Source: Scatophagus argus (taxonomy: Eukaryota; Chordata; Actinopteri; Scatophagidae). From it: DNA of 64,000 nt. The stretch is taken from the NCBI RefSeq assembly GCF_020382885.2, contig NC_058511.1, positions 64,501-128,500 of the forward strand, in the 5' to 3' direction. Shown one piece after another: positions 45,679 through 58,075 of this stretch (the stretch's first letter is position 1; each line of letters begins with the position of its first letter). Position numbers and translations under genes: made by a program. The notes beneath the pieces were generated by a model. It was not told where the DNA came from, ran no database searches, and saw only the letters and a program-made list of their open reading frames with translations.

Positions 45679-46055
45679 ATCGTAGTTGAACAGTTTTAAT
45701 GTGCAAAATTAGAAATGTTGCGCAAACGCTAATTCAGAGTTTTGTAACCCGTCACAAACAAAGCGTTTCGAATTTCCCGCAGTCCGTCAGCGGGCACGTG
45801 ATTGCGATTCGCAATCTGATTGGTTTTGTCGCAGCGTCAGTTTTAAAGAACCTCCACGAGCTGCGTTTGTATTGGCCAGCTGTGTTCTAGCGCCAAGATC
45901 TCAACAAAAAGTTGAGCGGACAGCAGAAGCCGCTTCAGTCTCTGCTCTCCGTTTGTGTTAGCCACTAGTTCGCTTAGCTTTTCTCGCTCTTTTCGCCCGC
46001 ACTTTTAACTTCTTAACTTATATTTTATCTGTCAGTCTGAACTCAGGGAATCAAA
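45679..46055 (+). promoter_or_regulatory. rrm2 promoter, left copy
   Basis: The E2F-type motif TTTCCCGC is at 45773-45780, an E-box CACGTG at 45795-45800, and inverted CCAAT boxes (ATTGG) at 45819-45823 and 45871-45875. This arrangement suits an S-phase gene, since rrm2 promoters are known to use E2F and NF-Y. The whole region is repeated in the right copy. Confidence 0.6.
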
Positions 46056-49000
46056 ATGCTTTCTGCTCGCTCTCCTCTTTCCGTCAAGAGTGAAAACACA
46101 CTCAGCGGTGCGATCGGCAGCATGTCTCTGGACAAAGAAAACACGGTGAGAGCAAAAATACCCGCAGAGCTCATGTTTCGTGTGCGCTTTCACAGTGAAC
46201 TTACTGATTTTTCAAAGTGAAAACTCACGGCAGCCATTTTCCGACCAGTTCAGTCCGATCCACTCAAGTCTACTCTGTATTTCAGCTGTGTGGTGTGATA
46301 AAATCAAACGTCCGAATGCAATGTGGGAACTGTTTTGGTCTGGTCTCTAAGGACTTCTTGTCGCTTATCTTTCAGCCTCCGAGCCTGAACACGACCCGCA
46401 TCTTGGCGTCTAAAGCCGCGCGTAAAATCTTCGACGATCCTGCGGTAAGTGAACCAAAGTGTGCTGAAAGCTGCTGTAACAGACGGAATGTCTGTGCTCA
46501 TGTTAGAGTCGGTGCTGGGGACACTGTGTTGGTCGCGGTGCTCATGTGGCGCCTAAAATGTGGCTTGTGGCGCCAACAGGACGATCAGCTGTCGCTGTTG
46601 CTCTGAATGTTCTCCTGCAGGTGACGTCTTCAAAGAGTCGGCTGTTCGCTTTCTGGTGGTGTCGGTCACCGTTTTTGACCGTTTCTCTAAAAAGAGTGTA
46701 AACATCCTGGTATTTTTTTACTTTGTACCTTTTTTACTTGACCTACCTGCACCTTTATTTCTGCTACTCTTGTGCTGCTATGACGATGTGAATTTCCCCA
46801 GTGTGGGACTAATGAAGGCCCATCTCATCTCATCTTATCTTATCTCTTAGTTAATATCAGAAGCGGAGATTCCCCTCAGCCGACCAGCTGAAGCTGAGAC
46901 AGTTTGTCGTTTTTGTTCACAGTTGCAGTTCCAGCTCAAACTTGACTTTCTGAATAAAGTCTGACATTAAGGTCGACATCGGCGCCTGTAGTGACGGGTG
47001 TTCCCTGTGTGTTTTGTGCCCTCCAGCCCAGAGCCGTGAAGAAGAGCGGCAGCGAGGAGGAGGAGGAGGAGCCGCTGCTGAAGGAAAACCCTCGTCGCTT
47101 CGTCATCTTCCCCATCCAGTACCACGACATCTGGCAGATGTACAAGAAGGCCGAGGCTTCGTTCTGGACCGCAGAGGAGGTACAGATGGACGCGGGTCAG
47201 GGGGTTTGGATCACGTTAGCAGCACAGTCGTGTCTTTATTCACATGTACTGTGACCAACTGAACATGGTCACGTGTGCAGACCAAGCCTCCGGCTGCTGG
47301 ATGATGTCGCGTTCACGGCTCGTGTTTTGTCCAGGTGGATCTGTCCAAAGACCTGCAGCACTGGGAGTCTCTGAAGGACGAGGAGAGGTACTTCATCTCT
47401 CACGTGTTGGCTTTCTTCGCTGCCAGCGACGGCATCGTCAACGAGAATCTGGTGAGGACGGCCCACATAGTTAGTCAGTCCTCTAGTTTCCCCGTCTGCT
47501 GCACGTCCCATCAGCTTCAGCCAGAAGAAAGATCCAGTGACCCTGTGAATCAGAGCACAGACTGGACTCCTGTTGTCCTGTATGCGGACGTGCTGCACAG
47601 GAAGTGTGTCGGTTCCCCCTGAAACCTTTGGATGTTAGAAAGCAGCAGTAAACTGAGGGAGCTTTAGTTGACCCCGCTTGAAGGAAAATCTTTGAGTTCT
47701 AGCAAAGATCAGAATAGCTGCAAATGAATTTTCTTTTGATGGCTTTCCTCTGTGTGACCACCAGGTGGAACGCTTCACCCAGGAAGTGCAGGTGACGGAG
47801 GCCAGGTGTTTCTACGGTTTCCAGATCGCCATGGAGAACATCCACTCAGAGATGTACAGCCTGCTCATCAACACCTACATCCGAGATCCCAAAGAGAGGT
47901 GAGACTCCACCCTGTTAGTGCTGCTGGCGGTCTGTGCCGGTCTGTGCTGGTCTGTGACGGTGTGTTCAATGACCTGCAGAGAATACCTTTTCAACGCCAT
48001 CGAGACTCTGCCGTGTGTGAAGAAGAAGGCCGACTGGGCGCTCAACTGGATCGGCAACAAAACGGCCAACTACGGTAAACGCCGCACGTTCCTGGCCCAT
48101 CAGGTTTGACGCCGATCTCTTGTCTGGCACTGATCGTAACTCTGTGCTCCTCCAGGAGAGCGTGTGGTGGCCTTTGCCGCCGTGGAGGGAATCTTCTTCT
48201 CCGGTTCCTTCGCTGCGATCTTCTGGCTGAAGAAGAGGGGCCTGATGCCCGGCCTGACCTTCTCCAACGAGCTCATCAGCAGAGACGAGGTGACGACCGC
48301 TGACTACATCACACAGCAGGATCACTGCAAAGCTTCTTCCTGCTGCTTTAGCGGAACGGAAATCACTGGAGTTTGAATCTGTCTGCGGCCGCTAACGTTG
48401 TGTTCAGGGTCTGCTCTGTAAACTGTTGTCTGTATCCTTGTGTTGCCTTCAGGGTCTGCACTGTGACTTCGCCTGTCTGATGTTCAAACACCTGGTGAAG
48501 AAGCCGCCGACAGAAACCGTCACCAGCATCATCAGGAACGCCGTGGAGATCGAGCAGGTCGGTGGACACGGACGGATGGAGGCCGTCGTCGTGGTTTCTC
48601 CCAGCCGCCGGTTTCTCTGGTTTTCACGTTGTGTGCTGCTGTCTTTGTGTTCAGGAGTTCCTGACCGAGGCTCTGCCCGTGAAGCTGATCGGGATGAACT
48701 GCGAGCTGATGAAGCAGTACATCGAGTTTGTGGCCGACAGACTGATGCTGGAGCTCGGCTTCACAAAGGTGAGCGCGTCTCGACAGACCAGAGGCCGACG
48801 GGCGGAGCCGCGGAGGACGGGGTCTGTGATGATGAGAAGCGCAGGGGTACGGACCTCAGCCGGTGATGGGGGCTGAGTGCTGCTGCGGACGTTCTGATAG
48901 GCGGACGAGTGGTCCGCTGACAGAGCAGCAGCGGCACGAGACAGACGCCCGTCTGAACAGACCCGCCGCGTTGGCTCCGACAGGCCGGTCAGGTTAGCGC

Positions 49001-49365
49001 ACGGACGCACCCGGAACTGGACGAGCTTCACGCGTGTCCACGTGTCGTTTGTGTCCCGCTGAGCCGCTGCTTTCATGCAGTGAAAGTATCAGTCACTGTG
49101 TAGAAGCGCTCTTTGTCAGACACAAGCGCAGCGTCTGAGTGTACTTGGTTAAAGACGCGACTCTGGAACGAAGTGGCTGAGCTGACCTCTGATCTGCCTC
49201 GTGTCTCTGTAGATCTATCGAGTGGAGAACCCCTTCGACTTCATGGAGAACATCTCTCTGGAGGGAAAGACCAACTTCTTCGAGAAGCGGGTTGGCGAGT
49301 ACCAGAGGATGGGCGTGATGTCGGGCCCCACCGACAACACGTTCAGGCTGGACGCCGACTTCTGA
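46056..49365 (+). CDS. rrm2: RRM2, ribonucleotide reductase small subunit, left copy
   Basis: RRM2 is the R2 subunit that makes dNTPs in S phase, pairing with RRM1 and carrying the di-iron centre and tyrosyl radical. Ten exons give 387 residues in frame (human 389): 46056-46145, 46376-46444, 47027-47179, 47335-47451, 47765-47898, 47980-48074, 48156-48289, 48453-48557, 48655-48768 and 49213-49365. The N-terminal KEN box (DKENT, residues 26-30) for APC/C-Cdh1 degradation is present. Iron ligands and the radical tyrosine lie in [26 protein letters not shown] and ISRDEGLHCDF. The C-terminus RLDADF docks to RRM1. The KEN box separates it from p53R2 (RRM2B). The reading frame is intact. Confidence 0.97.
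46700..46852 (+). repeat. LINE-type 3' tail in rrm2 intron 2, left copy
   Basis: The sequence ATGTGAATTTCCCCAGTGTG is followed by TCTCATCTTATC repeats, a fish non-LTR 3' tail. It occurs at the same place in the right rrm2 copy (56902-57054), so it entered before the copies became identical. Confidence 0.6.
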
Positions 49366-57300: not shown

Positions 57301-57698
57301 TTCACTTACCGCAGGATCGTCGAAGATTTTACGCGCGGCTTTAGACGCCAAGATGCGGGTCGTGTTCAGGCTCGGAGGCTGAAAGATAAGCGACAAGAAG
57401 TCCTTAGAGACCAGACCAAAACAGTTCCCACATTGCATTCGGACGTTTGATTTTATCACACCACACAGCTGAAATACAGAGTAGACTTGAGTGGATCGGA
57501 CTGAACTGGTCGGAAAATGGCTGCCGTGAGTTTTCACTTTGAAAAATCAGTAAGTTCACTGTGAAAGCGCACACGAAACATGAGCTCTGCGGGTATTTTC
57601 GCTCTCACCGTGTTTTCTTTGTCCAGAGACATGCTGCCGATCGCACCGCTGAGTGTGTTTTCACTCTTGACGGAAAGAGGAGAGCGAGCAGAAAGCAT
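54389..57698 (-). CDS. rrm2: RRM2, ribonucleotide reductase small subunit, right copy
   Basis: A second complete rrm2 gene whose ten exons mirror the left copy exactly: 57698-57609, 57378-57310, 56727-56575, 56419-56303, 55989-55856, 55774-55680, 55598-55465, 55301-55197, 55099-54986 and 54541-54389. The only coding difference noticed is a synonymous T/C in the tyrosine codon near the start of the last exon, so the two 387-residue proteins appear identical. KEN box, iron ligands, radical tyrosine and the RLDADF tail are all present. It keeps the same promoter but has its own 3' UTR and AATAAA at 54080-54085. It looks functional. Confidence 0.96.
56902..57054 (-). repeat. LINE-type 3' tail in rrm2 intron 2, right copy
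   Basis: Mirror of the tail at 46700-46852: GATAAGATGAGATGAGATGG then CACACTGGGGAAATTCACAT. Confidence 0.6.
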
Positions 57699-58075
57699 TT
57701 TGATTCCCTGAGTTCAGACTGACAGATAAAATATAAGTTAAGAAGTTAAAAGTGCGGGCGAAAAGAGCGAGAAAAGCTAAGCGAACTAGTGGCTAACACA
57801 AACGGAGAGCAGAGACTGAAGCGGCTTCTGCTGTCCGCTCAACTTTTTGTTGAGATCTTGGCGCTAGAACACAGCTGGCCAATACAAACGCAGCTCGTGG
57901 AGGTTCTTTAAAACTGACGCTGCGACAAAACCAATCAGATTGCGAATCGCAATCACGTGCCCGCTGACGGACTGCGGGAAATTCGAAACGCTTTGTTTGT
58001 GACGGGTTACAAAACTCTGAATTAGCGTTTGCGCAACATTTCTAATTTTGCACATTAAAACTGTTCAACTACGAT
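57699..58075 (-). promoter_or_regulatory. rrm2 promoter, right copy
   Basis: Mirror of the left promoter: E2F-type site at 57974-57981, CCAAT boxes at 57931-57935 and 57879-57883. Its upstream context beyond 58075 differs from that of the left copy. Confidence 0.6.

Follow-up and report, generated by a model that had tools for sequence, protein, structure and literature searches.

The stretch of DNA analysed here, called the window, covers 64,000 nucleotides (C19:64501-128500, C19 being contig NC_058511.1) of the Scatophagus argus assembly, a set of 48 contigs for a total of 570.7 Mb. It contains two rrm2 genes, copy A and copy B, located in opposite orientation on the two sides of a galectin-8 gene (lgals8). 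The features of the locus are listed in Table 1. The genes in the neighbourhood were assigned from Pfam matches and solved structures. In this part of the window an ADAM17 domain comes first, followed rightwards by a TAF1B-type domain, a zinc-finger exon, a lysine-methyltransferase-like gene, rrm2 A, galectin-8 and rrm2 B; right of the window end, DHHC, DUF1358 (which we take to be tmem242) and BAF250_C (ARID1 type) follow. The zinc-finger exon, whose match is below the family cut-off, is provisionally read as klf11. Between it and rrm2 A lies a 381-codon open frame (43985-45127) with a Methyltransf_16 domain, possibly mettl22. The open frame tested within the spacer matches the Gal-bind_lectin family (E 1.3e-30) and the galectin-8 structure 4han (E 5.7e-51). 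About 110 kb of C19 precede the left arm, and arrays of CCCTAA, interspersed with other sequence, are found to the left of the window at C19:2501-8000; their presence suggests that the start of C19 is a chromosome end and that the window is subtelomeric.

Table 1. Features of the duplicated rrm2 locus, in window coordinates.
Feature	Position	Strand	Evidence
Left arm (copy A), from promoter to 12 bp beyond rrm2 stop codon	45679..49377	+	self-BLAST and inverted-repeat search
Promoter and 5'UTR, copy A	45679..46055	+	pattern scan
rrm2 copy A, 10 coding exons, 387 aa	46056..49365	+	splice sites, translation; mouse R2 1h0n
Copy A exons 1-5	46056-46145, 46376-46444, 47027-47179, 47335-47451, 47765-47898	+	
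Copy A exons 6-10	47980-48074, 48156-48289, 48453-48557, 48655-48768, 49213-49365	+	
SNORD94 (RF00613), C/D-box snoRNA, intron 9 of rrm2 A	48823..48961	+	72.8 bits, cut-off 60
Copy A 3'UTR outside arm	49378..49668	+	polyA signals; 49564-49667 colinear with copy B 3'UTR
Spacer, 4999 bp, with galectin-8 gene on minus strand (tested ORF 51834-52346)	49378..54376	.	Pfam, solved structure
Copy B 3'UTR outside arm	54077..54376	-	polyA signal; alignment to copy A
Right arm (copy B), mirror image of left arm	54377..58075	-	self-BLAST and inverted-repeat search
rrm2 copy B, 10 coding exons, 387 aa identical to A	54389..57698	-	splice sites, translation
SNORD94, intron 9 of rrm2 B	54793..54931	-	72.8 bits, cut-off 60
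Promoter and 5'UTR, copy B, same as A	57699-58075	-	pattern scan

The arms, each 3699 bp long and separated by 4999 bp, align without gaps and with 5 mismatches (99.865% identity), position x of one arm corresponding to position 103754 minus x in the other. The mirror-image coordinates, the lack of indels and the near-identity described in the first-pass annotation are confirmed, with the correction that five differences are counted, in place of four. They are located at 46154/57600, 47624/56130, 49030/54724, 49218/54536 and 49373/54381, and correspond to a divergence of 0.135% (5/3699; 95% interval 0.04-0.32%). Each of the five is a transition, the left copy carrying A or T where the right one has G or C (two-sided sign P 0.06, n=5), and three of them fall in CpG in the right copy. 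The last 348 bp of the arm at the inner edge hold three of the five (P 0.007, post hoc). Identity stops abruptly at both edges. No other inverted pair of at least 1 kb was listed in a blastn self-search of C19:1-250000 (7,500 bases of which are N) and 50 kb of another contig, C1, and by this measure the pair exceeds chance expectation. A short inverted repeat (35014-35122 / 58724-58833, 88% identical), one copy of which lies just outside arm B, is probably a dispersed element.

Both rrm2 copies have GT/AG splice sites and a CDS of 1164 nt; the only difference between the two CDSs is synonymous (codon 339, TAT/TAC). Among solved structures, the protein is best matched by mouse R2 (1h0n, E 1.5e-214 over residues 1-387), its best full-length score being 715 bits with mouse R2, versus 599 bits with M2 B. 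The metal-ligand and radical-path residues checked are all kept (11/11, mouse R2 numbering; their roles and numbers are those we assume for mouse R2), and the di-iron ligands, the radical tyrosine and the transfer path of class Ia R2 are found in both copies. A KEN box is present at residues 27-29, in the N-terminal part, as in the S-phase form, and the C-terminal LDADF is kept. As judged from these sequence features, both copies are assigned to RRM2 and not to RRM2B, as class Ia ribonucleotide reductase small subunits (R2).

The 377 bp upstream of the ATG are identical in the two copies and include a predicted E2F-like site, two CCAAT boxes and a TTTAAA element. In copy A the elements are TTTCCCGC (45773), minus-strand CCAAT boxes (45819, 45871) and TTTAAA (45842); the elements were located by a pattern scan, and the factor names are presumptive. 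Since both arms stop 12 bp beyond the stop codon, at a functional border, the two genes have separate 3'UTRs. Copy A has an AATAAA 193 bases and an ATTAAA 282 bases past the arm end, copy B an AATAAA 291 bases past it. The first-pass description of two complete genes with intact frames and catalytic motifs, a common promoter and separate polyA signals therefore stands.

Intron 9, the last intron of rrm2, contains in both copies a SNORD94 gene, called by the Rfam covariance model above its curated cut-off of 60 bits. This further duplication was absent from the first-pass annotation. A search of the whole assembly, with 42 out of 58,241 first-look candidates scored, brought up no third SNORD94. 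In zebrafish, snord94 is reported within an rrm2 intron, named as the second, in a passage of PMC6023535, a table of which gives SNORD94 as a U6 guide snoRNA with U6 C62 methylation as its target.

In order to count rrm2 copies, the assembly was searched with a DNA query, ranging from the promoter to exon 4, and with the R2 protein. The DNA query, for which 40 of 345 candidates were scored, produced two full matches, while the other 38 resemble, at 77-87% identity, a short part of intron 2 which is evidently a dispersed repeat. The protein query produced 28 matches, 20 to exons of the two rrm2 copies and 8 to a gene on contig C17, whose less similar exon set is presumably rrm2b. A third rrm2 was found by neither query, within these limits, in the 570.7-Mb assembly. 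The doubled R2 dose proposed in the first-pass annotation is plausible as a prediction, and the two SNORD94 genes may likewise have an effect. A search for DNA of fish origin within prokaryote genomes, meant as an aid to dating, yielded nothing usable, since the best 80 of the 577 relatives confirmed all carry bacterial titles. The R2 proteins of these 80 loci, mostly titled as Bacteroidota, are 65-73% identical to the fish protein over about 320 residues, a remarkably high likeness between bacteria and animals.

The arm-level divergence lies within the range of allelic differences, as it would if a single rrm2, or its two alleles, had been placed twice in the assembly. Several observations argue against such an artefact. 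No N is present in the window or in C19:2501-170000; the copies differ at five places and have different flanks; the 3' flank of copy B (54040-54376), the one flank searched genome-wide, matches only itself; known neighbour genes carry on at both sides; and the 3'UTRs, as described below, resemble diverged relatives. Moreover, repeats of about 3.7 kb usually collapse in assembly instead of doubling. We consider a double placement very improbable.

Beyond the inner edges, the two 3'UTRs can be aligned colinearly, positions 187-290 of A facing positions 190-299 of B (counted from the arm end), with 72 identities over 103 ungapped columns (70%, JC distance 0.38). The aligned stretch ends just past ATTAAA in A and AATAAA in B, the only polyA signals paired by the alignment; the AATAAA of A, near the aligned start, is unmatched in B. 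AT-rich chance matches score as high in blastn (one of 44 bits was found elsewhere with the A 3'UTR), and for this reason blastn E-values were discarded and the relation, which was found post hoc, was evaluated against empirical nulls. These were built from GC-matched segments of the same chromosome, with the alignment confined to the expected diagonal, under 12 settings of scheme and band. In any setting, no more than 10 of 6599 segments scored as high as observed with A fixed, no more than 5 of 6599 with B fixed, and no more than 9 of 8000 among random pairs; in 8 of the 12 settings the count was zero for A as well as for B, and 0 to 3 for the 8000 random pairs. These nulls, like those used for the flanks, exclude C19:1-9000, the region with the strongest chance matches of the A 3'UTR; with this region kept, at band 15, the counts were 1/8282 (A) and 0/8282 (B).

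Segments anchored on AATAAA gave 0/347 (A) and 0/362 (B) at bands 15 and 30, and 11/347 and 6/362 at band 8. Of the four unrestricted schemes, two let such segments reach the observed score, 8 and 5 of the 347 (A) and 3 and 2 of the 362 (B). Shuffles preserving trinucleotides reached it in 2 of 1000 cases, and those preserving dinucleotides in none of 1000. For sum-over-alignment scores, the segments which did as well numbered 14 to 291 of 8282 with A fixed, versus no more than 1 of 8282 when B was fixed. When nhmmer was run over 250 kb with either 3'UTR as query, the other 3'UTR was absent among the matches listed. The same diagonal-restricted test detected no homology between the outer flanks of the copies, and no relation in the region 320-640 bp past the inner edge, further into the spacer. 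At the inner edge, near-identity is thus followed by 3'UTRs which are colinearly more alike than matched segments, and which appear related but diverged in the diagonal-restricted tests, more weakly in some others. They are likely to be diverged relatives; if the relation is real, the distance of 0.38 found there is nearly 300 times the arm distance of 0.00135.

Because the 3'UTRs look related but diverged, the locus is best read as an old duplication, in which the segment from promoter to stop codon was made alike recently. According to this interpretation, which we regard as fairly probable, an older inverted duplication would have placed rrm2 on both sides of lgals8, and the copies would have been kept nearly identical from promoter to stop by ectopic gene conversion. 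DNA would be copied from arm to arm during repair, a process favoured by their mirror arrangement and close spacing, and the copying would be recent or continuing. Selection for equal and abundant R2, and perhaps for SNORD94 too, may favour the conversion.

The first-pass annotation had proposed either a very young duplication or gene conversion. The second is favoured, because the sequence just outside the inner edges looks diverged but related. The first would consist of a 3.7-kb copy inserted across lgals8, for instance by template switching, with five changes accumulated since and the 3' end of B supplied by local DNA. A divergence of 0.135%, with introns and promoter free of indels, is expected of a young copy, and abrupt edges on both sides and unrelated outer flanks fit the same origin. 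However, the 3' flank of a freshly inserted copy B is expected to be unrelated to that of A, and on the expected diagonal the 3'UTRs resemble each other more than matched segments do; in addition, under random breakpoints, an inner edge falling within 12 bp of the stop codon would be a coincidence. A very recent insertion seems, on the whole, rather unlikely.

Two weak hints agree with conversion: the crowding of differences at the inner edge and the raised G+C content of the introns. The latter is 0.523, versus a local mean of 0.442, a modest excess, since 16 of 289 background windows are as high. In copy A (introns within 46146-49212), the first intron has a G+C content of 0.44 and the last one of 0.62, followed by a drop to 0.36 in the 400-bp bin beyond the arm edge. 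The pattern is compatible with GC-biased conversion as well as with ordinary local composition.

Facing arms of 3.7 kb, 5 kb apart, are also a suitable substrate for repeated inversion, in which crossing-over between the arms, and not one-way conversion, would flip lgals8 and mix the copies. A flip would keep both genes whole and swap their 3'UTRs only. The single assembly shows a single orientation, and we consider this explanation of the near-identity highly improbable. A broader and speculative proposal, which we hold to be unlikely, starts from conversion: a long-lived palindromic rrm2 pair in a vertebrate, kept identical by conversion for an equal and doubled output of R2 and SNORD94, whose arms would let lgals8 flip, giving rise to an inversion polymorphism which swaps the rrm2 3'UTRs.

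As to a share of neighbouring genes in the duplication, a blastn comparison of C19:60001-110178 with C19:122576-170000 produced only scattered, short, repeat-like matches; the spacer had no match in either of these regions. KLF11 and RRM2 are neighbours in human, and, copy A being on the klf11 side of lgals8, our guess is that A is the ancestral copy. In gar, lgals8 is described as flanked by kif11 (spelling as printed), rrm2, tmem242 and arid1b, a set partly shared by teleosts (PMC4989294), and tmem242, rrm2 and klf11 are said to lie beside LGALS8 in ray-finned fishes only (PMC10343441); the cited passages of both papers give no gene order.

Similar arrangements are known from other systems. 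Like the rrm2 pair, Drosophila Hsp70Aa/Ab and Hsp70Ba/Bb are copies of a conserved gene which lie close together in mirror image, and a passage of PMC3924832 ascribes the likeness of such palindromic pairs within species to ectopic gene conversion. The Hsp70 case rests on several species and on shared polymorphisms, while the rrm2 pair is known from one genome and, unlike Hsp70, has another gene between the copies. In the mirror-image Drosophila pair Amy-p/Amy-d, according to the same passage, the coding region undergoes concerted evolution and the flanks evolve apart (PMC3924832). The arm edge near the rrm2 stop codon resembles this contrast, but in rrm2 the likeness extends to the introns and to 377 bp upstream. 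Near-identical fish copies on either side of another gene are found among the poeciliid LWS opsins, where S180-1 and S180-2, with 99% coding identity, flank P180; the part of the paper cited raises homogenisation as a possibility and calls for data from more species (PMC3087554). There the gene in the middle is an opsin too, while here it is galectin-8. Crucian carp has two R2 genes, R2i and R2ii, whose proteins are 95% alike and which are ascribed, in the passage cited, to a genome duplication in the carp lineage (PMC3419237); by contrast, the rrm2 pair encodes identical proteins from genes 5 kb apart. No report of an inverted rrm2 pair in fish was found among the titles and abstract openings searched, which does not prove its absence from the literature.

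The presence of two copies has practical consequences, in that the assumption of a single rrm2 in S. argus would lead to misreading of expression, knock-outs and read mapping; since their 3'UTRs differ, the copies are separable at the RNA level. Should the pair be old and homogenised, vertebrates would have an equivalent of the Hsp70 and Amy palindromes, here in a gene which is rate-limiting for DNA synthesis, and the converted tract would carry a snoRNA along; one could then ask whether dosage keeps conversion going.
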